Shown here: positions 5,178 to 59,658 of the stretch, in pieces | Position numbering within the stretch: the first letter of the stretch is position 1 | Layout of the letters: the number at the start of each line of letters is the position of its first letter | NCBI GenBank assembly: GCA_021234155.1 | Contig: JAJEKV010000080.1 | Location: forward strand, 666,182 to 730,181 | Length of the DNA: 64,000 bases | DNA from: Isoetes taiwanensis | Taxonomy: Eukaryota; Streptophyta; Lycopodiopsida; Isoetales; Isoetaceae | Direction of reading: 5' to 3' | The notes under the pieces: generated by a model | Seen by the model: the letters and a program-made list of their open reading frames with translations, nothing else | Database searches by the model: none | What the model was told of the DNA's origin: nothing | Program-made: the position numbers and the translations under genes

Positions 5178-5189
5178 ATGAAAAGGACA

Positions 5190-6130: not shown

Positions 6131-6178
6131 AATTTTGCTATCTGAAATCAGAGGTCATGACTGAACTTGATCACCATA

Positions 6179-6690: not shown

Positions 6691-6699
6691 CTTCAGGCC

Positions 6700-15399: not shown

Positions 15400-16415
15400 C
15401 GACAAAGGTGAAATCCATTCTATATTTGATATTCTTGTTTTAAGCCCGATAAAATTTTGCCAAGTAATTTTGAAGAAGCTATTAAAATAATGATTGAAAA
15501 AGCGGAGCAAAGCTATGGAGAATGAGATGCAATCTTTCAAAAAAGCGAAACCTATCTTGTGGTTGACAAGCCACGAGGTAAAAATATTGTTGGCAATAAA
15601 TGGATTTTTAGAATAAAGCCGAGGCATTGATGGAAAAACAAAAAAAGTATAAAGGCAAGGTTTGTGGCACAAAGCGTTTACTCGGAAAAGAAAAGGGTTA
15701 GATTTTGATGAAACATTCTCACCATTGGTCAAGATTAATAGTTTGAGAATGCTACTAGCCATTGCAAACTCGTGTCACATGGAAATTCATCATATGGATG
15801 TAAGCCTGACATTTCTTAATGCAAAACTTGAAGAAGAAATCTATTTGAAACCTGCACCGAGTTGAGGAAGGAAGAAGAAGGAAAAGTTTGGAGATTAAGC
15901 GAGGCGGGTCTATGGGCTGAAACAAGCACCAAAGGGGTGGTACAAATGTATGGACAATTATCTTCTAGAGCAAGGTTTTGAAAAGTTAAAGTGTGATGGG
16001 AATTTATCTACGGATATAATCTTTGGAAGCGGTGGTGTATTATAGCTTTATATGTTGATGACAATATCATGGTTTGCAAATGACAAAGATATTTTGACTC
16101 AATGCAAACAAGCTGCTCAATAAAGCGTTCCCAAATGGCGATTTAGGTGAACTTAAAAGGTTTCTTGGCATTGAAGTATCTGAGGGACGAGAAAACATAA
16201 GCTGCGACATTGAGCCCGACAAACTCATATCCTAAATATGTTGAAGAAATTTAATATCGTGATTGCAACATAGCACAAACTCCCTTAGTACCGGAGGAAG
16301 ATCTCGACTAATATGTCTCCAAAAATAGAAAGAAAAAAAGCAAATGGAAAATGTGCCTTATAGATCAGCGATTGGTTGCTTGTCTTATGTAGCAAATTGC
16401 ACAAAACCCGGATAT
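15400..16415 (+). pseudogene. copia pol: reverse transcriptase (unit A)
   Basis: RT pieces are present in changing frames: FDETFSPLVKINSLRMLLAIA, HHMDVSLTFLNAKLEEEIYLKPAP, a GLKQAP block, and YVDD at about 16050. Frame changes are dense and nearly all fall where unit B has CAG or CTG. The domain stops at CTKPDI, where the 8.3-kb transposon is inserted. Confidence 0.8.
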
Positions 16416-16763
16416 AACAAAGTTGCGTATTAAGCGGGGAGCAAATCATTGAAAGCGAGAGCAAAAGGAATATTCCTCAAAAGATTCCTTTTTTTTTACA
16501 AAAAGGGGTAAAAGCGAGGTTAAAAAAAAAAAAAAGATGCATGAAATTCTATTTTGACCCCCCCCCCAAATGACTAATTTTTTTTTTCAATGAAAAATTG
16601 ACTTTTTTTAAAGTGTCACTTTTCTTAGCAAATAGAATGTTCTTAAAGTATGTTTTAAGAGACAAACTCTAATTTTAGGAGGATAAAATATTTAACAAAA
16701 ATTGAAGTAAGTGCATGCTTGAAGCTGTAGTATTCTCAAAAATTGAAGATAGAATCTTCATAT

Positions 16764-19700: not shown

Positions 19701-20001
19701 TTGTGGAGCTTCCATAGGTGGTCGGGGGATGGAACAAAGGGTGATGGCAACATGCTCCGGCTGGTGGTGATTCTTTGGAAGGAGATGCGGTGTCTTTGTC
19801 TCTGAGGACTTGGTGGCGGTTGGAAGGGTGGTGGAAGTGCATTACGTCTTTGGACTCGGTGTGTCTTGAGGAAGCAACAACGATGAGTAGAGGTAGGAGT
19901 CGGAGAATGCCGGTCTTCACTAGAAATAGCGTTGTTCCCAAAGCGTGTCCTCGAGAACAGGGCGAGTTTGAGACAACAAAAGGTGGTGGAAGCTTGTTCA
20001 T
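16764..20001 (-). pseudogene. DUF7869-type putative transposase gene (unit A)
   Basis: The probable start is MNKLPPPFVV at 20001 and the probable stop is at 16764. In order on the minus strand: a Ser/Pro/Thr-rich N-terminal region of about 250 codons; KCCSLGCINRFNMAKL at about 19135; a Cys/Lys-rich helical stretch; a DGMDQ-type motif at about 18351-18369; a Leu-rich strand followed by QLDN and ENKN at about 18090-18130; ELGIFRKVKLCFLLVGHTHD at about 18000-18060; and an acidic Ser/Asp-rich tail. DGMDQ, LDN-ENKN and VGHTHD(Q)ID are, from memory, hallmarks of the DUF7869 family in plants, oomycetes and animals, which is spread by repeats. Many frame changes break the gene. Confidence 0.65.
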
Positions 20002-20694
20002 GGCGGTTCGTCATCTTAACAAGCGCAAAAAATAGTAAAGAGATTTGAGAAACTTTACGTGTCGCGAGCTTTTCTTATTCGAATACTGCATACGTAGTAC
20101 AAGTAGAAGTTCGGTACTAATCAAGTGAAAGTCAAAATAAAAGCTATTACGGAATACACAAAGAGTAGGATAGTAAAAGCTAAGCGTATTCCGCTTCACA
20201 TAGAAAAAGAAAAGGCGAAAAGGATACCTTTAAAAGGAAATTTGGCGCCTTGATTGCGTATTCGGTCTCGGGCTCGAGTTGCCCGGCGCCGGTATACCGA
20301 TTATAAATAGGGAGGACCGTATTCCGATTCACATAGGCGAACATGGGCCGGTCGGTAAGAAAGTACAGCGTACAATCATTTGCATAATACGTTTCTTATT
20401 CCCGAATACACTATCGCCTTCCCTCGGAGAAAGTGTATTCCGAATACACTGGCCTTCGCTTTGAAGGCAGGAAAGTGTATTCGGAATACACTGGCAGCCT
20501 TCACGAAAGTGTATAGCGAAAGTGTATTCGAATACACTTTCAGCTTTCAAAATGAAGGCCAAAGTGTATTCGAATACACTTTAAGCCTTCAAGTGAAACC
20601 AAAGTGTATTCGAATACACTTTAAGCTAACCGGTGGCGAAAGTGTATTCAGGAATACACTTTCGTGTTTTTAGGTTTTAAGAGGTTACTTTTCC
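20002..20694. promoter_or_regulatory. Divergent intergenic region of the transposon (unit A)
   Basis: This is the 0.7-kb region between the 5' ends of the two divergent transposon genes. The left half has scattered GTATTCCG half sites; the right half is the palindrome array at 20395-20670. No clear TATA box was identified. It is the natural place for promoters of both genes. Confidence 0.5.
20395..20670 (+). repeat. Palindrome array 1, GTGTATTC(N)GAATACAC (unit A)
   Basis: Six full copies of AAAGTGTATTCNGAATACAC, extended by TTT, plus half copies, occur at about 40-50 bp spacing. The spacers contain a second inverted pair, GGCCTTC/GAAGGC, so the array alternates two palindromes and could form a run of hairpins. 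The centre varies between TTCGAA, TTCCGAA and TTCGGAA, consistent with a 17-bp palindrome whose central CCG/CGG is variably called. Confidence 0.85.
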
Positions 20695-22507
20695 ATGCGT
20701 TTTTTAGTTATTTTAGGCGTTTTTTCTGCCTTTAAAGCTTGTTTAGACCTTTTTCTTCGTCAAGATTGCAGTGCTTTTTTGGCATTTTTGTCCTCTTTTT
20801 GCCCTCTTTTTTCCCTTTTTGCAAGACATTTTGTGATACGGAATAGTTTTTGGCCCTTGTTTTTCTCTAACAAGGTCGTGTTTACAAACAATTTGCCTGA
20901 GACAAGAAGGCGACAGAAAAACAACGAAGAGGCCCTTAAAATCCCACGAAAGCCGCACCCTGAGAGAGAAGGCTTGAGGAGTCAATTGCGCCTACTATCT
21001 CTGAAAACTTTCAAACTCAATGGTTCTTTACAAAGGGGTATACGGAAAGTACAGCACCCTTACTTTCCTACATATCAGTTGAGACCACGGAACCAAAAGA
21101 TGCGATGGCGAGGGAATTTATGCGCATGGGCACCATCCTTCGCCGTGAGTGAAGTATTTGGGGAGTCGGTCGGGTAGGGAGGCTGTCTTTTCGGACATCC
21201 CAAGGCTTTATTCATGTTGATGAATCCTACCTTAGAGTGGTGAAAGTAAATCCACATCCTCTTTACAAGTATGTTTCTCACTACGAACAAAAGTAAGCTC
21301 TGTTCCATCATTAACTTCGTTCGAAGCACAACGGCGAGGACTTCCCCTGACGAGAGTCGAGAACAAGGGGAAGAGGATAACCTAGAGAGCGGCGGTGCAT
21401 CATCACCATCACGGGAGTCCATCGGAGACCGAAGAAAGGCCACCGTCACCACCACCAAAGCGGCAAAGGCAAACCGTTGCGCTAAAAAACTAAAAAGCAA
21501 AGCGGCTTTGATTACCTTGAGAAGATGCTCACGAGGCACAAAAAAAAAGAAGAAGGGGAAAGGCAAAGCACACGGTGTTGCTTTCAAAAAAAAAAAAGTT
21601 GATAAAACATCGAGAAAATGGAGGAGATAAAACTGCACAAGTTTGTGCAAGGTGTCATTATTGCCCGATCACTTGTATGAAGCTTCCACCGAAAAATGAA
21701 GGCTGGTGAAAGGCCACCGGGTTCGCAAAATTTCGCCGATCACTTGAGGAACTGAAAAGGCGAGAATAAGGAGCAATCAAATGCTCATGTGGCCCCAATA
21801 GTTGTCCTTGTTGCGGGGGGGCGATGCAAAACCCCGAGGACTATGGCGGAGAAAGCGAGACCTACACTCACTCGTCTTGGGAGGCAATCGACTTCAAGGC
21901 AAGAAGGCAACTTTATAAAAGAAAAGAACCGAGGTACCTCTCAGTCCTCTGTATTTGTTTCTTGTGGTCTTACCGATGAAGAAGCGAAAATCGTTGCCAA
22001 CACCCACAATCGCGACAGCGAATATAAACTAAAGATGAGCCGTCGACAAGATCCGGTTCATGCGAAGTGCGTAATTTTCAAGGAAAAGTCACGGTGAGGA
22101 CTGAAAAGCCGGCGTTTTCCTTGGAGCTTAAGGGCGTGTGCCATTGAATCTTTTGAAATATGGCGAGGCCAATAAAAGCGATCTCTCATTGGTTTCAATT
22201 AGCTTTTAGAGATGGCAAGGTAAGCACAAAAGCGTATTCGAATAACAAATCAACTATCTCCGTGAAATCTTTTTGAGCAGATTTGGGAACTCGGGGCGAG
22301 ATATTTTCAATGTTGAGCGAGGGGAGTTAAAGAGCAAGGAGCAAGGGGACAGCCAAGAAAAAATCATCGGCGTGCCCAAAAAAAATGACCATTACCGTGC
22401 GGCGAGAAATGCGGGGCTTCTCAGAACCACGAGAGATTACGGGAGGCTTCTCCAAAAGTTGTTGATAAGGAGTTTAGCCTAGAAGAAATGTCAAAGGAAT
22501 TGCACAA

Positions 22508-22916
22508 GTAAGATCTACGCCACAAACTTTACTCTTTAGGCGTTAGAGTCCCAAAAACATCGGGGTAGATAGTGTATTCGGAATACACATACCTTTCTTC
22601 ACATGGGCCTTTGTGTATTAGGAATACACAATGCTTTTCTAGAGACAAGCAATGTGTATTAGGAACATTATATAAAAGAAAGCATGTGTGATACGGAACT
22701 CACATGTCCTCTTCTAAAAAGTATTGTGTATTCGAATACACATTGCTTCCTTCCGGAGATGCAATGTGTATTAGGAATACCACAATGCATTGTTCGAGTA
22801 GCATCACCGGTTAACCGGTTTGTATTCGAATACGTTTAGCTTGACTTTTATTTGTTTTTCTTCTACTTTGACTTGTTCCTCACTTTTTAACTCATTCTTT
22901 CCTTAGCGTCTTGCAG
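22508..22916 (+). other. Intron of methyltransferase gene carrying array 2 (unit A)
   Basis: The donor is CACAA|GTAAGA and the acceptor is TCTTGCAG with AG at 22915-22916. Splicing joins KELH to NQKNVITCQTC in frame. The intron is mostly palindrome array 2. Confidence 0.6.
22568..22835 (+). repeat. Palindrome array 2, TGTGTATTC(N)GAATACACA (unit A)
   Basis: About seven copies of the same GTGTATTC(N)GAATACAC core occur as in array 1, but with different flanks: GCAATGTG on the left and CACATTGC on the right. Spacing is about 40 bp. Some cores read TTAGGAA, probably miscalls of TTCGGAA. The array lies inside the intron 22508-22916. Confidence 0.82.
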
Positions 22917-24719
22917 CCAAAAAAGCGTCATAACATGTCAAACATGTTTGATGGAGCGACTAAGCGTAGAGACATGGGAAAGGTGCAAGGAACTCTACCC
23001 AATAGCCGCCGGCGTGGCGCATTGTGCAATATGCACCAAATTTTGAGGGCTGGGTAAGTACTCTCAACATTCCTCGTCTTTGCACACCACGATCTCCTTA
23101 CGGTTGTTGTTTATGTTTTTCCTCGAGCAAAAGAAAAACAAAGACCTTCAGGGATTTATGCATTTGGTTAGAACAACACGGGAAGAGAGGTCGTTAAATT
23201 TGAAAGAAGAAGCTGTTGAGCGAGAACCATCCGACTACGAGAGATTTTGCATGTTTGATCAAAACAATTTATATTCAATCATTCACGGTGATTGCACGAA
23301 ACTTTGTCGAACGGTTAAGCCCGCGAGGACTTCACTTTGGTTATTCTGATCTTCCCTACGGGTTTAAGCTTAAAGGCGTGAATCTGACGACCAGCCCTTC
23401 AAATTTTCAGAATTTAATGCTTTTATTGATGGAATCAAGCGGATCCTGCTTGACTAAACATTGGCGTTTAGTTACTTTCCATTCGAGCATGCGGTCGGCT
23501 TGGTAGAATCAGCTTTCAAAAACCACTTTGGTTCTCGGTTCGAGGCGGGATATGAAAACCTTATGCGGTAAGTCTTATTCGAATCTGATTACTTTTCTCT
23601 TTGATTCGTGGTGTATTAGGAATAGTATTTTCTGTTTACGGTTTTGAAGTGTTTTCTCTTTTTTGCTAACATCACTTTAAATGTTTCACTAGGTACAAAG
23701 CGAACATCAACTACCATGGTGGAGGTCCAAGGTTGCTTAGCAAGGTAGAGTACCTTCATGTAGCTTATTGGAGTTTTGATGGGAAGAGGACCATGGAACA
23801 CTTCAACAACTTTGCCTTTGTCAAAACTTTTCAAGCGTCCTTGAGTTTCCAGCGGTCTTCACAATTGCGGGACCCAAGCGCACAAAGGCGGGATTGTGAA
23901 TCACTACGAAACCACAAAAGCTCATCAACCATCTCACGGACATGTTCTCGCGTCGTCCGGAGATTGGAGATGCTGATACTTTCTCACAGTTCTGGTACTA
24001 CTATCGCATGTGCACTTAAGAAGGGCATAGCTGTATGGTAGCCGTGGATATTGATAAGGATCTTTGTTAATTTTGTGAAGATGATGGTTTGCCTTACCTA
24101 CTTTACCGGATGAACATCAAGAGCTAGGGGCCAAGTCTTCATCGATTATGCTAAACTAAGCGTCCTCGGAGATCTGACCTCCATTCTCCGGCTCACTAGG
24201 CGATGAGGCAACCTTTGCGAGCTTAAAAAGTAGCTTTAGCTACCATTCAGGAAGGACAAGGAGGATACAAAACTTAAGTCTCCGGCAAAGGGCGGCCCGG
24301 CCTGAGAAGGACGAGGCGGCGGAAGCGAAAAAAAATGATGAGGACTATGATGTAGATCTTTGACTACTGCACATTAAAATTATCATTATTTATTACAATG
24401 AATCTTCTATATTGATGTACGAAAATTTATTAAAAACATATTACTTTTTTTTCCTCTCCATTTTGGTGCTTGTTTTTTTTCATGCTTTCAGTCTCTTCAA
24501 GTCTCTGCCTAAATTTAAGCTATTTGTATGATTTACGTTTTCATAAGTACAAAGTTATAAGCCTAATAATGGCCCAAAATTACCGAAAAAAAAAATCACG
24601 AACCTCTAGAAATTCTCAACAACTTTCAAAAAGGCTTATTTTAGAAACATGGTGTTTTTTAAAAGGGAATCTTTGAAACGGGAGTGATGCAACACTCCCG
24701 TTTAATTTGCTATCGTGTT

Positions 24720-25290
24720 ATATAGCCTTTGGAGTAAACTTGTTGAGCAGGTACAACAATAACCCTGGTTTAGAACATTGGACAGCTGCTAAAAGAATTT
24801 TGAGATATCTGAAAGGTACCTTAGATATTGGTATTAGGTATAACTCAGATGAACTTAAACTTAAGGCCTATTATGACTCTGACTGGGCAGGTGATTGTGC
24901 CCCTATAGCTTGGAAATGCAAAAAGCAAGGAAGTATAGCCCTATCTAGTGCAGAAGCAGAATATAATGCTGCAACTTTGCTAACTAAGGAGGTCATTATG
25001 GGAGAAAGGCGCTGCTGAGCTGGGGGTAGAACAAGCAGAACCTACAATAATTTTTGTGATAGCACAAAATTTTGCATAGCCATGTCGAAATCTGTGTTGC
25101 ATGAAAGATGCAAGCATATAGAAATGGAAGTCCATTTTATTAGAGATATGGTTGAAAGAAAGCGGGTACATCTTGCATATGTTATACGAGGTCGATCAAA
25201 TGGCGGTTACTAACAAAGGCCTTGTCCTTGGAAGATTTAAGGTTCTAAGAGATGCGATGCGATTACATGGAAAAAATTAGTGGCTAAACT
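24720..25290 (+). pseudogene. copia pol: RNase H end (unit A)
   Basis: Continues the copia pol after the transposon: AFGVNLLSRYNNNPGLEHW, AKRILRYLKGTLDIGIRY, YYDSDWAGD and SIALSSAEAEYNA are readable up to about 25010. After this, frame changes break the remainder (HERCKHIEMEVHFI block, about 25100). Confidence 0.82.
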
Positions 25291-25740: not shown

Positions 25741-27043
25741 TTTTCCACAGTGCGGTATAATCATGCACTCTGAGAGAAGGGGTCAATTAGTGTCGACAAA
25801 GCGTCACCACAACATTGGCAAATATACCGACATTATGGGTGACATTACTTGGGCCGAGACACTTATACATGCTTATTTATTAGGGAGGATTTCATGATGT
25901 CGACATCTCATTTATTCTGAGGAGAATTTTGTGGCGTCGACCTTTAGGTCTTAAATGGCCAGATGGACTCATCTATTAGGAAGATTTACATGCCATGCCA
26001 CTCTCTCTAAATTTAAACCCATATGCTATAGGGCACGAGACATCAAACATCGTTACAAGGGGCAAGCTACCAATTACAACTTCTTAGATCAATGCATTAA
26101 GACCATAGGGTTGGCATCAATTCACAATTATACCGAGGTTAACACATTACACAATTTCTCACTATGCTATGGCGTCTTATAACTTGCACCATGGTTATAT
26201 AGAAATGCATAAAATTGATTGGGATTATTAATTATGGATTTAGATTTTGGGACATTTTCAAATGTGGAAAAAGAATATTTCATATTTTTGTCTTTGGTTA
26301 TCCTACCATATATGGAGGCTCAAATTTGAAATTTCCCAAGCATAGGCATGAGCAATGCAATTACTTTAACTTTCACATGTCTAGAAGCCCGACATTGTTT
26401 CAACTTAACAATATTCGATGGAGAAATGTTCATGGGGGCCTTGGCAGCGATAAATTCTTGTACACATAAATTGATATTTCATATTTGCTAAAATCCACCC
26501 TAATGTATTGGGTTGCATATAAACTTGTGATCGAATACCCTTCAACAAGCTTATCTGCTCAAGATGGGTTGTTCGTCCTCCTAATACTCATTTCAAGGAA
26601 AAGACAAATGTTAGCGGCGGCTTCGACAATCTTAGCCGTCGACTTACCAACATTCATAAAGGAGTTAAAAGAAAACCTAGCACACTTCATACATTTCACT
26701 TGCAATCATGTAAGTTTTCTAAATGAAGTAGATAATGCTTGAGCATACGTGCAAGAAGTTGGAACATAGAACAATGACCATTACAACCCTCTCTTCATGT
26801 TGCTTAGCAGCCACTTCCACTTTGTTAAGTTTACCACGAACTCTCGGATATAAAGCTATGAAAAATAAACTTTGGCTTCCAAAGATGATATGTGGAGAGA
26901 TGGAGAAGGAATCAAAAGGCTGTGTTTATGAGCATTGCTTCGCTTGAAGGTCGGGAACCGAAAACTTGCTTTGTTTGAAGATGAGAAAGATGCATGACAT
27001 TTACTAATCTGTTTCTACGCATGATTTTCCAAGTAAATACGTG
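25741..27043. other. Unit A spacer upstream of eL24
   Basis: No gene is recognised; short open frames at 25955-26182, 26215-26469 and 26485-26742 look non-coding. The segment 26505-26930 recurs, diverged and with one extra block of about 70 bp, at 35960-36485, so it is part of a dispersed repeat. Unit B equivalent: 58266-59580. Confidence 0.45.
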
Positions 27044-35959: not shown

Positions 35960-36485
35960 CTATACATTTCAATGCTAAAATCACCTAATGTATTGGTTTG
36001 CATATAAACTTGCGTGGAATACCCTTCAACAAGCTTATCTGCTCCAAGATTAGTTGTTAAGTCCTCTAATACTCATTTCCGGGAAAAAGGCGAATGTTCC
36101 CGCCGACTACAAACTTCTTTTAGATATAAGGTTGTTTGATGCAATATCATGTATAAACGACATGTCAATTTTATCCGACAACCTTACTTCATCGACTTAC
36201 CAGCATTTGTAAAGGAGTTAAAAGGAAACCTAGCACACAACTTCATACATTTCACTTGCAATCTTGTAAGTTTTCTAAATGAAGTAGATAATGCTTGAGC
36301 ATACATGCAAGAAGTTGGAACATAGAACGATGACCATTACAGCCTCTCTTCATGTTGGCTTAACCGCCACTTCCACTTTGTTAAGTTTACCCTGAACTCT
36401 AAGATATGGAGCTATGAAAAATAAACCTTGGCTTCAAAGATGATGTATGTGCTGCAGAGATGGGAAGGAATCAAGAGCTGTGCTT
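35960..36485 (+). repeat. Diverged third copy of the eL24 upstream segment at the unit junction
   Basis: Aligns with 26505-26930 and 59036-59455 (shared blocks include ACCCTTCAACAAGCTTATCT, AAAGGAGTTAAAAG and GAAGTAGATAATGCTTGAGC), with clear divergence and an extra block of about 70 bp. It stops exactly at the start of unit B, after GAATCAAGAGCTGTG. The eL24 promoter and gene do not follow. Confidence 0.75.
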
Positions 36486-37404
36486 CCCTACACTGTGTTC
36501 CTCTTTTTTGTCTTAAGCTCACTATTTTGCTCTTGGGACTTGTTTCGATCTTCTTAGGATTGTTCAAAGATATGCATGTCATAGATCCACTCCTTGTCAT
36601 TTTGTCCCCACGAACCCTATTTTTTTATCTCTCCCATTGACTATTTATCCCCTCCATCCCAACGTGGGAGGCCTAAATCCAGATTTATAAATAAAACTAC
36701 TTGCTTTCAAGTCGTGCGTTCACGAGATCTAAGTCTGTTCTGTTTACAGAGATCATCTTATCATAAAGCTAATATTTCATTCCTGTTCATGTGATCTCAT
36801 AGCTGGACAATAAAATCATTGTCAACCGTGTGCAAGTATGTAGAATTATCTTTGCCAATCATCCATGCAACATAAGTACATATTATTCAACTCAGATACA
36901 CATGGGTATGCCAGTGGATATGGCCCACAATAGGACTTTGATGCTTCAAAAGTCTTGTTCCATACTAATTTTAAATATATCTCATTAGATTAGATGAAGT
37001 TGGTATTTGATCACAACACTCAGATATCAGTCAAATTTTACTATGTTTAGTTGATACTTGTTGCTAGTACTACGAGCATCCCAAGGATAAAACATTACAT
37101 ATAATGGTCTTGGCAAATTATACACATAGTATCCAAGACTTTGCAATTTTCATGAATGTGTATCTATAATTAACGAATATAAATTATGTATGTGTACCTT
37201 CTAGATGGAATGTTGTAATATACTCATATTTTTGTAGACACATATCAGCTAAAAGCAATAAGAAAATAAAAATAAAATAAAATGTCCATTGGTGCTCTCA
37301 AAGATGGTGATGCCCAAAGCCCATATACAATAGACATGATAGACTAATCATAAAGCATAAGTTGAAATGAAGAAGGTTAGGTGAATTCGAAACAAAATGA
37401 AAGG

Positions 37405-38345
37405 AACAAAATTTAAGGGTAAGTCGCATTTAAATAAAGTGGGTCACATGCGATTTCCACTTTTCTTAGAACCTGTTATTTTACACGAAAAAGACGAGGG
37501 AAAAGTTTTCGGCCTCTATAACCATCCAAAATTTGAGTATTTCTGTGTTAGGTTGGGTCCAAGCATCCTATATCTTTCCCCCTATTTTCTCGGATCACGA
37601 GTCGAGAACACCAAGGATACAACTCAAATAAAGGAATTTCATTACACATTGAAGACAAAGTTACAGTTGAAAAAGAATTTTTATTAATAAATGAAATAGT
37701 TACAACGTATTTTACATCAGACGCAGAGACCATGGCGGTCTTGTTGTCACTACAGTCACATCATCATGGTAGGTGGTCCACCTTACAGGAGGAACGTGCG
37801 GGGCTTCTTCTTACCGTCTATAAGCTTTGGGGGCAACCTGAAGAACGTGAAATGCCTCACGAGGAGGTGCCTCGTGAGCCACCCACTGGCCGCCGGGTCG
37901 AATATGCTCGTTCCCCAACCTCCGTGGATGTCATGCAATGTTTGCAAGATCCTTTGAGCTTTCTGAAGTTGCAAAATGTTCTTCCTCTCTTCCTCATCCC
38001 TTGAGGTCCCATAGCGTCTACAATCACGAGCAAGCTTATCCCAAAGCCCTGGTAAAAGTGTAGCCTGAGCGGGATCTGTGCCATGTAGAACAAAGAGAGT
38101 CCATGATCAACAATTACGGTGCCATTAGTCATGAGTAACGAAGTAAAGGATGCAGAATTCAAAATAGATTGGAGAGCATTCATTCCATATAGTTGCATCC
38201 AATTACACAAAGAAGCATAAAAACGGTCTCATCATTGGGACAAGCAGTGCCTTTCTCGAGTCGAGAAAGGCCCTAGAAAGTCAATGTACAAGTGTTTTCA
38301 TTACAGAATATAGTACAATTGTTCACGTTTTTTTTTCAAAACTTC
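37405..38345. repeat. Repeat related to the insert in the copia integrase region (unit B)
   Basis: This is the unit B counterpart of the element at 5190-6130, nearly identical to it apart from small indels. It has the same relationship to the copia-internal insert of unit B at 46066-46675. The minus-strand open frame at 37857-38210 is conserved only because the unit is duplicated, and no domain is recognised in it. Confidence 0.5.
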
Positions 38346-38397
38346 ACAGAATTTTGCTATCTGAAATCAGAGGTCATGACTGAACTTGATCACCATA

Positions 38398-38909
38398 TTA
38401 TTTCTCGTCCATAGCCCTCATGATCGCCCTGCTCTCCGGATCAACCTGCTTGAGGTTCGGATAGTTCCTAATCACATCGGCCACAAGAATAGAAAACAGG
38501 GATTCCGCCAACACCGGAACGAGAGTGTAAGACATCCACTTATCCATTTCATGCTCTTCTAGCCGATAACTCTTTGCGATGATTGTATCGTCCGAGTTAT
38601 GATAGCACTTGTAGGCGGAGTCATCTATGATCAACGTGTTGTGTTTGTTAAAATCCTAGTATGCTTCATAAACTCTTTCCAGCCTTTTCACCATAATAAG
38701 CTTCCCCTTCATGATGGCCGGATCGAGATATGATACATGGTCGAATCTTTCGTTTCCCCAAACAAACTTGAACTTCAAAACGGGCAGGCGGAGTACACCA
38801 AGGATATTGACAACATTTTTGTTTTGCCACACAAGACCATATGGCAACACCCAACACCCCGAAGGGTTGTTTAGGGGGAGAAAAAAATAACAAACCAGCC
38901 CTTTCAAAA
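38398..38909 (-). pseudogene. FCP1/NIF-type HAD phosphatase fragment, broken (unit B)
   Basis: This is the unit B copy of the fragment at 6179-6690 and is essentially identical through the coding part. It carries the same frame change and the same in-frame TAG (about 38656) before the DDSAYKC signature. The sequence upstream of 38909 diverges from unit A abruptly, with odd local rearrangement, so nothing further of the gene can be recovered there. Confidence 0.6.
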
Positions 38910-39177
38910 ATTCTTCCCTTCGCCCATTCGTCCCTTCGCCTAAAATTAAAATTCGATTACCATCGCCAATAAAATAATGATTAACGCTCCCACCGCCATC
39001 GCCAAAGACTTTCCAAAAATAAAACCAAACCATTCAACCTAAGATTATTTTACTCAGATTCAAAACCCTAGAGTCATCTAGGGTCAAAAACTCGCCCTCC
39101 GCAAATGACTTGTACGCTTTTTCTATACAATACTTATACATAGCGGTGAACATAAAATTTGTTAGTTCATAATGGTT

Positions 39178-39470
39178 ATGGTGATTCCATCCTCGCGTAA
39201 CATTCTCTCCACCGCCATCGGAATCACCAACCTAAGATTATTTTACGATTCAAAACGAGTCCGCTCCAGGCCCCCTTATCCATACCTAACATAGCGGTGA
39301 ACATAAAGTTAGTTTGCTATGGTGATTCCATAATACCTTAACCCGCCTCGAACGGTCCGCCCCAATCATCCATACCTCCAAATCCCACAGATTCGGCACA
39401 GTCTCGGAATCATCACTCTCCGTTATTCCATCACCATCCGAAATTGATTCCGTCCAGTGGAATATCCCCA
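39178..39470 (+). repeat. GTGATTCC-type short repeat cluster, left (unit B)
   Basis: This is the unit B counterpart of 6928-7130. It is longer and contains locally duplicated phrases (CCTAAGATTATTTTAC at about 39033 and 39230; CATAGCGGTGAACATAAA twice) that unit A lacks. That looks more like a patching artefact than biology. Confidence 0.4.
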
Positions 39471-48098: not shown

Positions 48099-48800
48099 TG
48101 AAACATTCTCACCATTGGTCAAGATTAATAGTTTGAGAATGCTACTAGCCATTGCAAACTCGTGTCACATGGAAATTCATCATATGGATGTAAGCACAGC
48201 ATTTCTTAATGCAAAACTTGAAGAAGAAATCTATTTGAAACCTGCACCAGGATTTGAGGAAGAAGAAGGAAAAGTTTGGAGATTAAACAGGGCAGTCTAT
48301 GGGCTGAAACAAGCACCAAGGGAGTGGTACAAATGTATGGACAATTATCTTCTAGAGCAAGGTTTTGAAAAGTTAAAGTGTGATGGGAATTTATACAGAT
48401 ATAATGCTGGAAAGCAGTGGTGTATTATAGCTTTATATGTTGATGACAATATCATGGTTGCAAATGACAAAGATATTTTGACTCAATGCAAACAACTGCT
48501 CAATAAACGTTCCCAAATGACAGATTTAGGTGAACTTAAAAGGTTTCTTGGCATTGAAGTATACAGGGACAGAAAACATAAACTGCTGACATTGAGCCAG
48601 CAAACTCATATCCTAAATATGTTGAAGAAATTTAATATGCGTGATTGCAACATAGCACAAACTCCCTTAGTACCAGGGCAGAAGATCTCAGCTAATATGT
48701 CTCCAAAAATAGAGAAAGAGAAAAAGCAAATGGAAAATGTGCCTTATAGATCACTGATTGGTTGCTTGTCTTATGTAGCAAATTGCACAAAACCAGATAT
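48022..48800 (+). pseudogene. copia pol: reverse transcriptase (unit B)
   Basis: A nearly complete RT domain: LDFDETFSPLVK, MDVSTAFLNAKLEEEIYLKP, VYGLKQAPREWYK, the catalytic LYVDDNIMV, LKRFLGIEVY and SLIGCLSYVANCTKPDI. It is interrupted after CTKPDI by the transposon that begins at 48801. The continuation, AFGVNLLSRY, is found at 57237 onward. Confidence 0.88.
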
Positions 48801-49142
48801 AACAAAGTTGCGTATTAAACGGGAGCAAATCATTGAAACGAGAGCAAAAGGAATATTCCTCAAAGATTCCTTTTTTTTTACAAAAAAGGGGGTAAAACGA
48901 GGTTAAAAAAAAAAAGATGCATGAAATTCTATTTTGACCCCCCCCCAAATGACTAATTTTTTTTTGCAACGAAAGAATTGACTTTTTTAAAGTGTCACTT
49001 TTCTTAGCAAATAGAATGTTCTTAAAGTATGTTTTAAGAGACAAACTCTAATTTCAGAGGATAAAATATTTAACAAAAAATTGAAGTAAGTCCAGAATCG
49101 AAACAGTAGTATTCTCAAAAATTGAAGATAGAATCTTCATAT

Positions 49143-52100
49143 TCACATGCAAAATTTACGCCTTTTTCTAAGACTCCGCTTATGTGCAAAAGTGTGAGGA
49201 GTGATGAGAGAGGGATCCAGGACGCCTTCATATTCATTTATGCCATCGCCATCACCTTCACTTCTTTCATCATCATCCGAGGAAGTGCTTGAGTTATCTT
49301 CCTCATCACTATCAACAGACATCTGAAGCATTGTCACCACCTTCTTCATCATCTTCTTCGTAATTACAAGCTTTTTTAAGCAAATTGATAGTCTTCATGT
49401 AGACGATTGTCGATTTCAATTTAAAATCATAGCACAAAATAGTCACGCCATTAAGGTTCAGCTCGTCCCTACAACCCACCTTCTTGACTTTCTCCCTTTT
49501 CCTTGGCTTCTCATTTCTAACTCATATCTACCTTCAAAAGCATTTTCTCGAAAGCGTGTTGCAAGCCAATGAATCTTGAGTTTAGTGACTAAGCCTTCCT
49601 CCTTGACTGTGGTCAAGCACTTTTGCTATCCGTAATCCGCCGACCTTTGTCATCCTCCTCACTCGGAAGAGCAATTAGCATACCTTTGGTAATTTCTCGT
49701 GATATTACCTTGAGGCTCATTCCCCGCCTTTGGTCCGAGGTACATGACTCGTCCTCCTCGTTTTCATCTAGAGGTGCAAATGTAGCAATCGCTTGGACCC
49801 GCTTTGGTGTTTGGGGTTGATGGAAGGTGTTAGGCCATTGAAATGGTTCTTGCAACCGCCTTAGAGCTATATTTTGTACAACAATTTTCTCTGCTCGAGA
49901 AAGAAATTACTCCACCACATCCGATCTTCTTCTAAGAAGTACTTCAAGCCTCGAGGAAATTCCATTTTCAATGGCTTTTAAGGATGACTCGGGGTACTTT
50001 TCTTCCTCGCTTGGACTCCTTAGGATTTTTGAGAGCAAGTTGTTCAAAGACGCTCTATGAAGGAAGTGTCCGAATATATTTAAGGAAGCTGCAATCCCTC
50101 CTGGTGGACTCCAAATCCTTAGTTGTGGTATACTTCTTCCCTCAGAAGAAGCTTTGGCCATCCTTCAAGTAGAACTTGATATGATGTCGAAAGGTGAGAT
50201 CATTCAACTTGTTCACAAAATTTGTTCTCTCGCTTGAACGCTGAGAGAAAACAAACTCTCTAAAATCAGCAGCCTTTTAAGAAGATCGACCAATCGGAGT
50301 AGGAGTGTAAGAATCTTCAATAATTCAACTAAAGAAGGAAGACGTAAAAGCCTTCTTCCTTCTAAGGCTAACGTAAAATCAATAACATTTGTCAATCTGA
50401 TCATGAGTGTGGCCTACAAGTAAGAAACCGAGCTTCACTTTTCTAAAGATCCCTAGCTCCACTAACATGGCACAAGAGACGCAAAAGAGTGTTTGATTCT
50501 TGTTCTCCCTTGTAGTATTGTCAAGTTGCAAATAAAGCACCGGTGGTAATTGCTCTTGCTCGCACAGACCTTGTTAAGAATTGTAATTGTGAGGTTCGGT
50601 CACCATGCAAGTTTGGATACGCCAAAAATACTTTGCACTTTAGACTTCCTTTGAAGACTATAGCTCCTACAAGGTGGACCTTAACAAAACATTCCTCCGC
50701 ACATCCTTAGGAATGTTCAAGAAATGTGGTAGAGTTGTTTTTTTTTGGTCCATTCCATCAATCACAAATGTATTACATGTATTGCAAAGGGACGCTCAAG
50801 AGCTTTTTTCTATGCTTGGCAAGCTTTCTTCTCTCTCACGCTTGTTGTTCACGATGTGTCCGGCAAGGTTCTCATTGCACAATATCTCAGAGAAGAAATC
50901 AGGTCAAAACATTTTCTCTCAAACAAGTGAGAGATTGGAGAACATGAGCTTACTTCTTTTCGACCTCTGCCTTTGCAGCTTCTTTGTTGACTCTTTAATT
51001 CTCGCACACCTCGAAAGCAAAATGCATTATTCTATGTTTTCTAGGAATTTTCACAAGACCAATTCACTTTTCCACATACCGTGAAGTGTGAGTAAGAGAT
51101 GTGTCAAGCCGAAAGTGCAAGTCTCTTTGTACTCATTGAAAACATCTTTTTGGTGATGTTATCGCTTAAATGATACATGTTGTCGTTAGGTAGCTTCTCA
51201 CATGTTTCTCTAAAATATTTCTCCATCCATGACACAAAGAAGAAGGGCATGCATGGTTACAACTCTTCTTGGTCCACAATGATCATCGATTGCTGGATTT
51301 TTGTCCGCCTTTTGTGTATTCTAGACATTCTCGTGGACCCTAAATGGTGGACAACCATAAAGCATTTCGCAAAACTTCTTGACGGTTAATGTAGTGCAAG
51401 AAGGTGTTATGGTCTGGTCTTACATGATAAGCTAAGTAGGCATTCTGTCCGCGCAATGTCATGGAACTCAGAAGTTGTCTCTAACCGCCAGTAATTTAGC
51501 CATATTAAATCTGTTGATGCAACCCAATGAGCAGCATTTAGTTCTCAAAAGTCTCCTCATTTTGTGTTCATCCATAAGATTTCTTCTTCTTGCAGAGGAG
51601 CACGCCCTCAAACCAAAATCCACCTTGAATTTCTTTGAAGATTGGCTTGAGAACATGTAATCTCTTTGTTCCTCGTTGGTGTCTTCATCTTCTGATGAAA
51701 CTTCTACTCTGGGGGTGACTTCCTCCGTCCTGAGTGGTGTGCTTGTAGAGGAAAACAGACCACGTGAAGTTGTTCCCTAATAGGCGGGGTACAAAGAGTT
51801 AAAGGATGGTGATGGCCCATAAGAGGTTGTGGCATCACCGTTTCTTGTACCATCTTGAAAAGGAGTTCTTGCAAACATCTCCTTTAGAGCGGACTAGAAT
51901 TCTCAAGAATCCATGTGTCACAACCCGTTGTTGTGTGAAGAGGAGTGCATGCCGAGCCGTCGTCCCTCATTTGTAGTGAAGTCCCGTGAGAGAAATTGTA
52001 GTGAATCTCACGCCTTCTTTACTTTCTCGTGTTCCTTGTATGTTTGGATGAAGGGGCTAAGCAACAAATGGGGGTAGCTTGTTCTTGAACACCCGCTGTT

Positions 52101-52396
52101 GTGGAGCTTCCATAGGTGGTCCCGGGATGGAACAAAGGGTGATGGCAACATGTCTCAACCGGTGGTGATTCTTTGGAAGGAGATGCCGCAGGCCGCCTAC
52201 GTGACTTGGTGACGGTTGGAAGGGTGGTGGAAGTCCGTTACGGCCGGACTCGGTGTGTCTTCGAAGCAACAACGATGAAGCAGAGGTAGGAGCCTGAGAA
52301 TGCCTGGTCTTCACTAGAAATGACGCTTGTTCCCAAGCCGTCCTCCTCGAACCGCACGAAGTTTGAGACAACAAAAGGTGGTGGAAGCTTGTTCAT
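49143..52396 (-). pseudogene. DUF7869-type putative transposase gene (unit B)
   Basis: This is the unit B copy, from an ATG at 52396 to the stop at 49143. The most readable part is the catalytic-like core on the minus strand: DGMDQKKTTLPHFLNIPKD at 50761 and down; VHLVGAIVFKG; a continuous frame LPPVLYLQLDN, then ENKN, then LVELGIFRKVKLGFLLVGHT ending HDQID at 50535-50392. The C-terminus, 49352-49143, is acidic (SDEEDNSSTSSDDDE) and then basic. The family is widely associated with repeats, and conserved Asp residues in DGMDQ and QLDN suggest an RNase H-like nuclease; that is inference. It is divergent to the methyltransferase gene, sharing the array-bearing intergenic region 52397-53090. Whether introns exist is unclear. 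Confidence 0.68.
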
Positions 52397-52799
52397 GAAG
52401 CGTTCGCCATCTTAACAACCGCAAAAATAGTAAAGAGATTTGAGAAACTTTCAGAATGCAGCTTTTCTTATTCCCTCAATACACGCCTATGAGTACAAGT
52501 AGAAGTTCCAAAGACTAATCAAGTGAAAGTCAAAATAAAAGCTATTCGAATACACAAGAGTAGGATAGTAAAGCTAAACGTATTCCGCTTCACATAGAAA
52601 AAAAAGAGAAAGACGAAAAGGATACCTTTAAAAGGTAATTTCGGGCGCCTTCGCCATGTATTCCAGCCTCGAGCTCGAGTTGCCAGCCAAATACTTCGAT
52701 TATAATATTCGAGACCGTATTCGATTCACATAGAGTGAACATGGACAGTCAAGAAGAAAGTACAACGCATAATCATTTGCATGTTCGTTTCTTATTCTC

Positions 52800-53065
52800 G
52801 AACACACTATCGCCTTCCCTCGGGCTTAAAAGTGTATTCGAATACACTTTGGCCTTCACTTGAAGGCTTAAAGTGTATTCCGAATACACTTTCGCCACCG
52901 GCTTAAAGTGTATAGCAAAAGTGTATTCCTGGACACACTTTCGCCTTCAAGAAAGGCCAAAGTGTATTCCGAATACACTTTTTCAAGTGAAAGGTTGTGT
53001 ATTCCTCCACACTTTCGCCTCGATGAAAGTTTTTCTAAAGTGTATTCCCAATACACTTTCGTTTT
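52800..53065 (+). repeat. Palindrome array 1, GTGTATTC(N)GAATACAC (unit B)
   Basis: This is the unit B copy, with about seven sites, several in the 17-bp form GTGTATTCCGAATACAC. Spacers again pair as GGCCTTCACTTGAAGGC. The array sits about 0.4 kb from the transposase start and immediately before the methyltransferase gene. Confidence 0.85.
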
Positions 53066-54945
53066 TTAGGTTTTAAGAGGTTACTTTTCCATGCTTTTTT
53101 TAGTTATTTTAGGCTTTTTTTTCTGCCTTTAAAAGCTTGTTTAGACCTGTTTCTTCGTCAAGATTGCGCGTTTTTTGGCATTTTTGTCCTCTTTTTGCCC
53201 TCTTTTTTTCCCTTTTGCAAGACATTTTGTATTCGAATAGTTTTTGGCCACTGCTTTCTAACAAGGTCGTGTTTACAAACAATTTGTAATGCACAAGAAG
53301 GCAGCAAGAAACAACAGAAGAGGCCCCTTAAAATCCCACAGAAACCGCACCCACAGAGAAGGCTTGAGGAGTCACCGCCTACTATCTACTTAAAAACTTT
53401 CAAACTCAATGGTTCTTTACAAGGGGTACTTCGAAAGTACAAAGACCCTTACTTTCCTACATGTGTCCGTTGGAGCCCTCGAACCAAAAGGTAATGATGA
53501 CATGGAATTTGTCCGCATGGGCACCATCCTTGCCGCGGAGTGAAGTAGCCGGGGAGTCCTGGCGTAGGGAGACTGCTCTTTTCGCACATCCCAAGGCTTT
53601 ATTCATGTTGATGAATCCTACCTTAGAGTGGTGAAAGTAAATCCACATCCTCTTTACAAGTATGTTTCTCACCACCAACAAGAAGTCGCCTGCTCCATCA
53701 TTAATTACGCTCAAGCAATAACGAATGCAGGACTTCCCCTACAAATGAAGTCAAACAAGGGGAAGAGGATAACCTAGAGAGCCCGAAAGCAAAGGCATCA
53801 TCACCATCCGGGAGTCCATCGAGACCAAGAAAGGCCACCGCCACCACCACCAAAGCGGCAAAGGCAAACCGCTGCCGCTAAAGAGCCTAAAAAGCAAACG
53901 GCTTTGATTGCAAATGTAAGATGCCCCCCGAGGCACAAAAGAAGAAGAAGGGGAAAGGCAAAGCACCTCGGTGTTGCTTTTAAAGAAAAAAAAAAAAGTT
54001 GATAAAACATCCGAGAAAATGGAGGAGATAAACCCGCACAAGTTTGTGCAAGGTGTCATTTATTTGCCGGGCCACTTGTATGAAGCTTCCAATCAAAAAA
54101 TGAAGTCGGGTGAAAGGCCACTTCAGGTTCGCAAAAAATTTACCATCACTTGAGGAACCCGAAAGACGTAATAAGGAGCAATCCAAATGCTCATGTGGCC
54201 CCAATAGTTGTCCTTGTTGACGATGGAGCAAAGGCAAAACCCCCGTGACTATGACAGAAAAACGCAGAGACCTACACTCACTACGCCTTGGGAGGCAATC
54301 ACAGCCTTCAAGGCAAGAAGGCAACTTTATAAAGAGAAGAAGAACCCGAGGTACCTCTCCGCCCTCCTCGCAACAAGCATCGCGGGTCTTACCGATGAAG
54401 AAGCGAAAATCGCTGCCAACACCCACAATGCCGACAACGAAATATAAACTAAAGATGAGCTTCGGCGACAAGATCCTGCTTCATGCACGTGGAGTAATGT
54501 AATTTTCAAGGAAACGTACGGTGAGGACCTCAAGAAGCCGCTTTTTCTTTGGAGCTTAAGGAGGCGTGTGCCATTGAATGTCCTCACGAGGCCAATAAAA
54601 GGCGCTCTCATTGGCCACGATAACCGGTTTCAATTAGCTTTTAGAGATGGCAAGGTAAGCACAAAACGATTCCGTAATAACAAATCAACTATCTCACGCG
54701 GAAATCTTTTTGAACAGATTTGGGAACCCGTGACGAGATATTTTCAATGTTCGAACGAGGGGAGTTAAAGAGCAAGGGCAAGGAGACGCCCAAGAAAAAA
54801 TCATCCGACGCGCCCCAAAAAGAAATGACCATTACCGGCCGGGTGAAAATGCGTGGCTTCTCCGACACGTAGATTCCGAGAGGCTTCTCCAAAAAGTTGT
54901 TGATAAGGAGTTTAGCCTAGAAGAAATGTCAAAGGAATTGCACAA

Positions 54946-55365
54946 GTAAGATCTCTCCCACAAACTTTACTCTTTAGACGCTAGAGTCCCAAAACATCGG
55001 GGTAGATAGTGTATTCCGTATCACACATACCTTTTTCACATGGGCACCGTGGTATTCCGAATACACAATGCTTTTCTAGAGACAAGCAATGTGTATTCCT
55101 AATACACATTGCCCATGTAAAGGAAGGCATGTGTATTCGAATACACATGTCCTCTTCTAAAAGTATTGTGTATTCCGTATACACATTGCTTCCTTCAGAG
55201 ATGCAATGTGTATTCCGAATACACAATGCATTTTGTTTCGAGGTAGCATCACCAAGCAACCAGGCTTTGTATTCCGTATCACGCTTAGCTTGACTTTTAC
55301 TTGTTTTTCTTCTACTTTGACTTGTTCCTCACTTTTTAACTCATTCTTTCCTTAATGTCTTGCAG
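54946..55365 (+). other. Intron of methyltransferase gene carrying array 2 (unit B)
   Basis: The donor is CACAA|GTAAGATC and the acceptor is TAATGTCTTGCAG|CC. The two flanking exons join in phase (AA|C, Asn). Most of its 420 bp is array 2. Confidence 0.62.
55008..55290 (+). repeat. Palindrome array 2, TGTGTATTC(N)GAATACACA (unit B)
   Basis: Seven sites, most in the form TGTGTATTCCGAATACACA or with centre CCTAA or CCGTA. The extended arms GCAATG/CATTGC make palindromes of up to about 27 bp. The array lies inside intron 54946-55365. Confidence 0.82.
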
Positions 55366-57236
55366 CCAAAAGAACGTCATAACATGTCAAACATGTTTGA
55401 TGGAGCAGCTAAACGTAGAGACATGGGAAAGGTGCAAGGAACTCTACCCAATAGCCACTTCTGACGAGCGCATTGTGCAATATGCACCAAATTTTGAGGG
55501 CTGGGTAAGTACTCTCAACATTCCTCGTCTTTGCACACACGATCTCCTTACAGTTGTTGTTTTTGTTTTTCCTCAGAGCAAAAAGAAAAACAAAGACCTT
55601 CCCGAGGGATTTATGCATTTGGTTAGAACAACACGGGAAGAGAGGTCGTTAGTCGAAGAAGAACCTTCACCGGTGGAGCCGTAACCATCCCACTCACTTT
55701 AAAACTTTTGAATTGAGAGATTTTGCATGTTTGATCAAAACAATTTATATTCAATCATTCACGGTGATTGCACAATTCCTAACCTTGTCTGAACGGTTAA
55801 GAACTTTTTAGATGGTACCCCTGCATGACTTCACTTTGGTTATTGTTGATCTTCCCAATCATTCGGGTTTAAGCTTAAAGACAAAGCCAGACTTCAATTA
55901 TTACGACCAGCCCTTCAAATTTTCAGAATTTAATGCTTTTATTGATGGAATCAAGCAGATCACAACGGCTAAACATTGGCGCTTAGTTACTTTCCATTCG
56001 AAAGCATGCACCGCTTGGTAGAATCAGCTTTCAAAACCACTTTGGTTCTCCAACAGCAGATATGAAAACCTTGTTCTGTAAAGTCTTATTCCGTATCACG
56101 CTTATTTTCTCTTTGATTACGTAGTGTATTCCTAATAGTATTTCCCTGCTTCGGTTTTCAAGTGTTTTCTTGTTTTTGCTAACATCACTTTAAATGTTTC
56201 ACTAGGTACAAAACGAACATCAACTACCATGGTGGAGGTCCAAGGTTGCTTAGCAAGGTAGAGTACCTTCATGTAGCTTATTGGAGTTTTGATGGGAAGA
56301 GGACCATGGAACACTTCAACACCGCCGCCACTGTCAAAAACTTTTCAAACGCCCTTGAGTTTCCAGCAGCCTTACGTAAATTGCGGACCCAACCGCACAA
56401 GGCAGATTGTGAATCACTACCGTAAACCACAAAGCTCATCAACCATCTCCGGACATGTTCTCGCCCGTGAGATTGGGTGCTTGATGCTTTCTCGTTCTCG
56501 TACTACTATCGCATGTGCACTTAAGAAGGGCCGCAAATCGTAGCCGTGGATATTGATAAGGATGTCGTTAATTTTGTGAAGATGAGACCGGGTCTGCCTT
56601 TACCTACTTTACCGCATCTAACATCAAGAGCTAGGGGCCAAGTCTTCATCCGATTATGCTAAACTAACGCCCTCGAGATACAAAAACCTCCATTCTCCAA
56701 ATTTCACTAGACGATGAGGCAACCTTTGCAGAGCTTAAAGAAGTAGCTTTAGCTACCATTCCAGAGGACAAGGAGGATACAAAACTTAAGTCTCCAGCAA
56801 AGGAGCAGCCGGCACAGAAGGACGAGACGGCAGAGAGCAGCCAAAAAAATGATGAGGACTATGATATAGATCTTTGACTACTGCATATTAAAATTATCAT
56901 TATTTATTACAATGAATCTTCTATATTGATGTACGAAAATTTATTAAAAACATATTACTTTTTTTTCCTCTCCATTTTGGTGCTTGTTTTTTTTCATGCT
57001 TTCAGTCTCTTCAAGTCTCTGCCTAAATTTCGCTATTTGTATGATTTCTGTTTCATAAGTACAAAGTTATCGCCTAATAATGGCCCAAAATTACACGAAA
57101 AAAAATGCAAAAACCTCTAGAAATTCTCAACAACTTTCAAAAAAGGCTTATTTTAGAAACATGGTGTTTTTTAAAAGGGAATCTTTGAAACGGGAGTGAT
57201 GCAACACTCCCGTTTAATTTGCTATCGTGTTATATA

Positions 57237-58265: not shown

Positions 58266-59658
58266 TCCCTGGTACAGTATAATCATGCACTACAAGAGAA
58301 GGGGTCAATTAGTGTCAGCAAAACGTCACCACAACATTGGCAAATATACACTTCGACATTATGGGTGACATTACTTGGACGAGACACTTATACATGCTTA
58401 TTTATTAGGGAGGATTTCATGATGTCGACATCTCATTTATTACAGAGAATTTTGTGACGTCGACCTTTAGGTCTTAAATGAAGCCGATGGACTCATCTAT
58501 TGCAGAAGATTTACATGCCATGCCACTCTCTAAATTTAAACCCATATGCTATAGGGCACCCGAGACATCCAAGCATCGTTACAAGGGCAAGCTACCAATT
58601 ACAACTTCTTAGATCAATGCATTAAGACCACCGGAGTTGGCATCCAATTCACAATTATACCCCAGGTTAACACATTACACAATTTCTCACTATGCTATGG
58701 CGTACTATAACTTGCACCATGGTTATATAGAAATGCATAAAAATTGATTGGGATTATTAATTATGGATTTAGATTTTGGGACATTTTCAAATGTGGAAAA
58801 GAATATTTCATATTTTTGTCTTTGGTTATCCTACCATATATGGAGGCTCAAATTTGAAATTTCCCAAGCATAGGCATGAGCAATGCAATTACTTTAACTT
58901 TCACATGTCTAGAACTGACATTGTTTCAACTTAACAATATTCGATGGAGAGAAATGTTCATGGGGGCCTTGGCCGCCGCGATAAATTTCTTGTACACATA
59001 AATTGATATTTCATATTTGCTAAAATCCACCCTAATGTATTGGGTTGCATATAAACTTGTGATCGAATACCCTTCAACAAGCTTATCCTGCTCAAGATCA
59101 GTTGTTCGTCCTCCTAATACTCATTTCAAGGAAAAGACAAATGTTCGCGGCAGCTACGACAATCTTACTTCGTCGACTTACCAACATTCATAAAGGAGTT
59201 AAAAGAAAACCTAGCACACTTCATACATTTCACTTGCAATCATGTAAGTTTTCTAAATGAAGTAGATAATGCTTGAGCATACGTGCAAGAAGTTGGAACA
59301 TAGAACAATGACCATTACAACCCTCTCTTCATGTTGGCTTAACCGCCACTTCCACTTTGTTAAGTTTACCCTGAACTCTCAGATATAAAGCTATGAAAAA
59401 TAAACTTTGGCTTCCAAAGATGATATGTGGAGAGATGGAGAAGGAATCAAGAGCTGTGTTTATGAGCATTGCTTCGCTTGAAAGGTCGGGAACCGAAAAC
59501 TTGCTTTGTTTGAAGATGAGAAAGATGCATGACATTTACTAATCTGTTTCTACGCATGATTTTCCAAGTAAATACGTGTATAGTATATTGGGATTAGGGC
59601 TTCTTTGGGCTTAGGGTCCTTTGTCTTTCTAGGGTATGAAGAGAAACCGCGAGCAGCT

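Follow-up and report, generated by a model that had tools for sequence, protein, structure and literature searches.

A multicopy DNA transposon of Isoetes taiwanensis pairs a putative DUF7869 transposase with a putative beta-class amino-methyltransferase

What interrupts the copia polyprotein frame on contig JAJEKV010000080.1 of the quillwort Isoetes taiwanensis, a lycophyte, and do the two divergent genes inside the interruption belong to one mobile element? We analysed a stretch of 64,000 nt of this contig, referred to here as the window; all window coordinates are positions in it. A sequence-only reading of the window had described an 8.4-kb insertion in copia with inverted ends, an ATAT duplication and two divergent genes, and its boundaries proved exact: the element (copy B) occupies 48801-57231, starting with AACAAAGTTGCG and ending with GCTATCGTGTT (AACAAAG...GTGTT). 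The terminal inverted repeats (TIRs) lie at 48801-48825, supported by comparison of the ends and by genome matches to a degenerate 25-mer, and at 57207-57231, supported by comparison of the ends. ATAT stands on each side (48797-48800 and 57232-57235), and when the element and one ATAT are excised in silico the junction reads CCAGATATAGCCTTTGGAGTA, through which the copia frame continues as judged by eye. Because ATAT is self-complementary, a duplication of 4, 2 or 0 bp is compatible with copy B alone. The two genes are divergent as claimed, with a DUF7869 gene on the minus strand (49170-52420, limits approximate and set by analogy with the related elements L063 and L064) and an amino-methyltransferase gene of several exons on the plus strand (53260-56877, start approximate); the frames of both are broken in copy B. 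What the earlier reading missed, in describing a single insertion, is that the window is a direct duplication of ~32.4 kb that holds the same insertion twice. Copy A lies in the other half at 16416-24719 on the plus strand, between ATAT at 16412-16415 and 24720-24723. Copies A and B are one insertion event, and copy A is no independent evidence.

In the genome the degenerate 25-mer of the 5′ end matches exactly at 505 places (266 + 239), and its reversed control at none. A 604-base query from the 5′ end found 1,623 loose candidates. Scores were obtained for 40 of them, one being the window itself; the other 39 match at 94-97%. We fetched 20 of the 39, and three more (L062, L063 and L064) were chosen for their paired genes. 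Both ends were found in 14 of the 20, at lengths of 8039-8805 bp, and 13 of these 14 carry a perfect 4-bp duplication (TTGT, GGAT, TTAA, ATGA, TTTT, TTCA, AATA, CCAG, AGTC, CCAA, CAAA, TTAT and GGTA), which settles the 4-bp length and bears out the duplication first claimed from the window. The sole exception is L039, which has degenerate ends. No 3′ end was found within ~9.1 kb in the remaining six (L028, L032, L035, L041, L044 and L046). Among the three added loci, L064 is 8373 bp long with TTAA on both sides, L063 has its 5′ end alone located, and L062 was not placed by the end search.

All 14 two-ended copies have the DUF7869 gene on the minus strand at ~0.4-2.1 kb and the methyltransferase exon on the plus strand at ~7.1-8.4 kb. 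The six copies without a 3′ end all have a DUF7869 match; a methyltransferase match occurs in L041 alone, where it is weak (39%) and on the other strand. Protein searches of the genome covered the best 150 of 3,059 candidates for the methyltransferase exon and gave 82 matches for DUF7869 (78 scored of 10,889 candidates); both lists hold the best-scoring candidates only, and unpaired matches in them mean little. Among these best-scoring matches, 22 gene pairs lie within 15 kb of each other, all divergent and none in any other arrangement. They represent 21 distinct elements, as one DUF7869 match is split and its element was counted twice. The family is a multicopy TIR (class II) cut-and-paste DNA transposon of ~8.0-8.8 kb with inverted ends, 4-bp duplications and two divergent genes, and the single element carrying both genes that had been proposed from the window recurs with the same placement and orientation. 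Two elements inserted side by side, the finding that would have spoken against that proposal, were not seen in the other genomic copies. Such an artefact, or contamination by bacterial DNA, is extremely improbable, with the same structure at 14 sites, 13 of them with their own duplication, and genes that have introns.

The minus-strand protein was assigned to DUF7869 by a profile search, as its motifs had suggested: one unbroken piece from the window matches PF25273 with E 3.5e-24 and 85.9 bits (cut-off 26). The putative catalytic core motifs span 50382-50756 on the minus strand, with GMDQKK at 50739-50756, QLDNT at 50514-50528 and VGHTHD at 50400-50417, and four of their residues (D42, D119, H157 and D161) are invariant in 59 aligned homologues. 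The homologue P0001 has an RNase H-like catalytic fold in which strand 1 ends with D39/D42, D119 directly follows strand 4 and D161 sits in the helix after strand 5. We strongly infer that the DUF7869 protein is a putative transposase with an RNase H-like DDE/D core. The query for homologues was a composite with a few guessed residues; its own Pfam score is unused, and the matched proteins stand by themselves. DUF7869 homologues in Riccia sorocarpa, Adiantum nelumboides and marine invertebrates share the domain and the conserved motifs with the protein of the element, and we know of no methyltransferase partner for any of them. DUF7869 proteins are thereby probable DDE/D transposases, a function that would have consequences for the gene models of liverworts, a fern and many animals.

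The 4-bp duplications bear on where this transposase belongs. Sola2 elements have short imperfect TIRs, 4-bp AT-rich duplications that include ATAT, and a long transposase, one family having a putative protein of 888 aa (PMC3627910). The element likewise has short imperfect TIRs, 4-bp duplications and a long putative transposase; unlike those described for Sola2, its duplications are not confined to AT-rich sequence and include CCAG, GGAT and AGTC. That the transposase falls within Sola2, or within a different superfamily already described that duplicates 4 bp, in which case the methyltransferase would be the only new part, is conceivable and on balance doubtful; it is compatible with the account of the whole element proposed below.

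The plus-strand protein was called an amino-methyltransferase from short motifs. In copy B, HGDC (55760-55771) and motif IV lie within 55760-55856, and the region of motifs X, I and II occupies 56412-56557 (NHYRKP 56412-56429, VLDAFS 56477-56494, TTIACAL 56502-56522 and VAVDID 56540-56557). The motifs cited in the sequence-only reading do match the two families, but DLPYG and SGTT are unreadable in copy B, where motif IV reads VDLP, and come from copy A. Neither the methyltransferase pieces from the window nor a first composite matched a Pfam family significantly. With copy B as its only source, a composite reached PF01555 at E 0.13, and one limited to residues encoded in A or B reached 2.8e-7; a later composite containing residues encoded in neither copy (the joints and motif I were guessed) reached 5.7e-11 and is not used as evidence.

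The methyltransferase exons are open in several other copies. In L049, exon 3 reads SIIHGDCTNLVGTVKPQDFTLVIADLPYGFKLKD and exon 4 reads GDWVLDAFSGSGTTIACALKKGRNCVAVDIDKEAV, and these two exons, unedited, match PF01555 with E 1.5e-18 and 68.0 bits (cut-off 26.7), the matched stretch being the motif I half. The same exons match phrog_67 with E 1.1e-25 and align with the enzyme CcrM (PDB 6pbd) over 246 residues covering both halves (E 5.4e-13), a similarity that supports a methyltransferase fold. In several copies motif IV lies upstream of motif I (DLPYG, then FSGSGTT), as in beta-class enzymes. Of 22 sequences examined, 16 have a readable DLPYG (copy A and 15 of the 20 fetched copies); the six without it are five copies that lack a found 3′ end and copy B, and L035, which also lacks one, has the motif. 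Variants of motif IV like DLPYG occur in phage enzymes. In L050 and L056 motif IV is DIPYG, which marks a diverged subfamily. Because of the profile match and the motif order, we place the protein in N6_N4_Mtase (PF01555), beta class, despite its exceptional motif IV, and the inference that it is a putative beta-class amino-methyltransferase is strong. By the D/S rule for motif IV, an initial D points to N6-adenine; since motif IV begins with D here and the nearest solved enzyme is CcrM, N6-adenine is predicted to be a more likely target than N4-cytosine.

Database relatives of the methyltransferase include P0121 and P0122, which are exon-sized and match at 66 and 63% over 37% of the query. 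Both also match PF01555 above the cut-off, P0122 holding only half of the domain. They were found with a shorter query; a query of 914 aa gave no homologue at E ≤ 0.01 among 4,349 candidates. Beyond these two, no close methyltransferase relative was found among the database candidates, in a search limited by shared words, and IMG/VR yielded no confirmed relative of either the DUF7869 gene or the methyltransferase. The phage relatives are distant, with 621 records at E ≤ 0.001 and identities of ~24-27% among the best matches listed. In GTDB, 18 loci matched 25-103 residues around motif I; in the two that were read (L002 and L006), motif I precedes HPPY, the other order, and the set was dropped.

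Is the methyltransferase more than a passenger? We calculated ratios of nonsynonymous to synonymous divergence (dN/dS) by the Nei-Gojobori method from stop-free natural copies, using pairs with dS above 0.3. The exon-4 core of the methyltransferase has a median dN/dS of 0.019 at a median dS of 1.99 (13 copies, 42 pairs), the tail of exon 4 a dN/dS of 0.155 (16 copies, some cut short, 73 pairs) and the DUF7869 exon 0.086 (4 copies, 5 pairs); no pair passed the dS filter for methyltransferase exon 3 or for the ParB-like domain described below. Because of saturated dS and a sample biased towards conserved copies, these ratios show strong constraint and not its exact size, and the strong constraint argues that selection keeps the methyltransferase core. 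A dN/dS of ~0.02 between lineages with saturated synonymous sites, and the presence of the methyltransferase in 14 of 14 two-ended copies, make it improbable that the gene, after a single capture from a bacterium or phage, has hitch-hiked with no role in transposition. On the side of such cargo are the larger number of first-look candidates for DUF7869 than for the methyltransferase exon (10,889 against 3,059, loose counts from queries of different length) and the lack of a methyltransferase domain in all 120 listed DUF7869 proteins, which says little, since in the Isoetes element the two are likewise encoded by separate genes.

Upstream of the methyltransferase domain lies a second domain (54022-54650, plus strand in copy B), weakly assigned as ParB/sulfiredoxin-like. 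The version in L064 matches over more than 190 residues in 11 of the 23 fetched copies, six of which are stop-free (L027, L031, L040, L041, L063 and L064), and in L031 it contains YVLGGNHSFKARRQLYKE and LTDEEAKIVANTHN. Its matches to phrog_723 (E 0.31) and to sulfiredoxin (E 2.6) are weak. Weak plasmid matches (E 0.5-9) are named ParB family protein in nine of nine cases and are clearly interrelated. Pfam placed DUF6551 below the cut-off in four of four members scanned, together with two unrelated families in one member each, and a phage search with the domain gave no match. A ParB/sulfiredoxin-like identity is likely on these similarities. L041 has a more distant ParB-like domain (53% to that of L064) beyond its 5′ end region, perhaps belonging to a second family.

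If the methyltransferase acts on DNA, where would it act? The element carries arrays of an 18-bp palindrome, whose commonest form is GTGTATTCCGGAATACAC. Allowing up to 3 mismatches, GTGTATTCCAGAATACAC occurs at 88 sites in 17 element copies (the 14 two-ended copies, L064, B and the first 8.5 kb of L063 counted from its 5′ end), from 0 in L027 and 1 in B up to 14, as compared to an average of 0.0 in base shuffles (20 per element) and none in 47,220 bases of the window outside the elements. At up to 4 mismatches none was found in 228,501 bases of bacterial loci. Of the 17 copies, 13 have at least one palindrome in the intergenic region (3.6-4.3 kb) and 14 have at least one at 5.8-6.5 kb, where a methyltransferase intron lies; at the latter place none occurs in L027, in L064 or, with 3 mismatches allowed, in B. 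In copy B an intergenic array of GTGTATTCCGGAATACAC-type palindromes (52798-53061), clearer in other copies, and a second array in a methyltransferase intron (55010-55230) can be placed. The arrays of L063 span 3939-4249 and 6229-6452, and that of L064 spans 3940-4289 (element coordinates, reverse strand of the loci). In these two copies most palindromes are 41-42 bp apart, and the variable spacers of 23-24 bp are themselves imperfect inverted repeats. A methyltransferase intron in L031 holds an extra stretch with inverted repeats at ~6240-6800 (element coordinates), seen by eye.

We consider it reasonably probable that these parts form one system, a class II transposon family whose DDE/D-like transposase is accompanied by a beta-class amino-methyltransferase marking the family's own copies by way of the palindromes. 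The ParB-like domain, or the transposase, would recognise the intergenic and intronic 18-bp palindromes, at or near which the methyltransferase would mark the DNA of the element. The mark might keep the divergent promoter usable against host silencing by 5-methylcytosine (5mC), or it might let the transposase distinguish its own copies. Self-marking through the palindromes is the simplest account, with recognition and marking as candidate steps. A more specific version is tentative: a land-plant transposon with a bacterial or phage-type module, in which a ParB-like domain is fused to a CcrM-like adenine methyltransferase and parS-like arrays sit in the divergent promoter, N6-methyladenine (6mA) on its own copies opposing 5mC silencing or licensing transposition.

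Three points weigh against self-marking. Motif IV is DLPYG or DIPYG instead of the canonical DPPY or SPPY, the assignment of the ParB-like targeting domain is weak, and the strong constraint on the catalytic core says that activity matters, not where it is exerted. The last two leave room for an enzyme whose target is RNA, or the DNA or chromatin of the host in general, and which aids the transposon through changes in host gene expression or silencing. We regard this as unlikely, since palindromes present in the elements and absent from 47 kb of the window outside them suggest the own DNA of the element as target, and the nearest enzymes are sequence-specific DNA methyltransferases. Self-marking remains the account we favour.

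The broken frames of the window copies have a separate bearing. Positions 7069-31449 match 39405-64000 at 90.9% and 4265-7021 match 36486-39290 at 94.5%, and the A/B differences are clustered into 384 events with a mean of 4.9 columns. Within the element, 87% of CG dinucleotides are at an A/B difference, as compared to 29-31% for AT and TA, 57-58% for GC and 30-57% for the others counted. The frameshifts in A and B were first considered as decay; given the clustering at CG, base-calling error at methylated CG appears likelier. As most A/B differences are taken to be such errors at methylated cytosines, the frameshifts are poor evidence of decay. The assembly was built from nanopore reads and polished with racon and pilon, as stated in the portion of the genome paper available to us (PMC8566536), and the CG-clustered differences, which occur in the element and in some other stretches, may reflect cytosine methylation in a nanopore assembly whose polishing was incomplete. 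Elsewhere in the duplication, e.g. at 4-5 kb and 27-28 kb, differences at CG are rare. A repeat of ~500 bases lies inside each duplication unit (26486-26927 and 59018-59461) and at the junction before the second unit (35973-36485).

The status of 6mA is contested in land plants as elsewhere. Its existence and function in eukaryotic DNA have been called controversial (PMC12695648). A core dN/dS near 0.02 in a multicopy plant transposon supplies this question with a defined enzyme, candidate sites (the palindromes) and a species. If the proposal is true, a parasitic sequence of a plant may write its own chemical mark on DNA.

How does the element compare with known systems? It shares with CcrM (PDB 6pbd) and other beta-class enzymes the order of motif IV then motif I, the HGDC start and the 246-residue alignment; unlike CcrM, the protein is encoded by a spliced gene of a plant, is extended by several hundred residues at its N-terminus and has DLPYG as motif IV. 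Mariner elements typically duplicate TA, whereas the duplications here are of 4 bp and varied sequence. Virus-borne Mariner elements with methyltransferases are a precedent and are likewise DNA transposons that encode both a transposase and a methyltransferase; as described in part of PMC3627910, they reside in virus genomes with a mariner transposase, an endonuclease gene and either Methyltransf_26 or a C5-cytosine methylase. The Isoetes element, by contrast, has hundreds of 5′ ends in the genome of a plant, duplicates 4 bp and encodes a putative DUF7869 transposase together with a putative beta-class amino-methyltransferase; no endonuclease gene was noticed in it, in analyses that included no search aimed at endonucleases. 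DIRS1-like retrotransposons carry a Dam-like methyltransferase whose function is unknown and so, like the element here, are mobile elements of eukaryotes with an adenine-type enzyme, according to the parts of PMC3266345 and PMC5890265 consulted, but they have a reverse transcriptase, RNase H and a tyrosine recombinase in contrast to a TIR transposon with a DDE/D-like transposase. Neither reverse transcriptase nor tyrosine recombinase appeared in Pfam scans of the element pieces used, with no dedicated search made. Retrotransposons of dinoflagellates and charophytes have also captured a DNA methyltransferase (DNMT), theirs being C5-cytosine enzymes in the portion of PMC5890265 available. In the open-licence PMC literature, available partly as excerpts, we found no transposon of this DUF7869 and amino-methyltransferase kind, Isoetes DNA transposons included; DUF7869 is named nowhere in the open-licence literature searched, and the main-text passages of the genome paper (PMC8566536) do not mention the element. 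Transposons carrying methyltransferases are already known, and what appears to be new here is a plant transposon that joins a DUF7869 putative transposase with a putative amino-methyltransferase.

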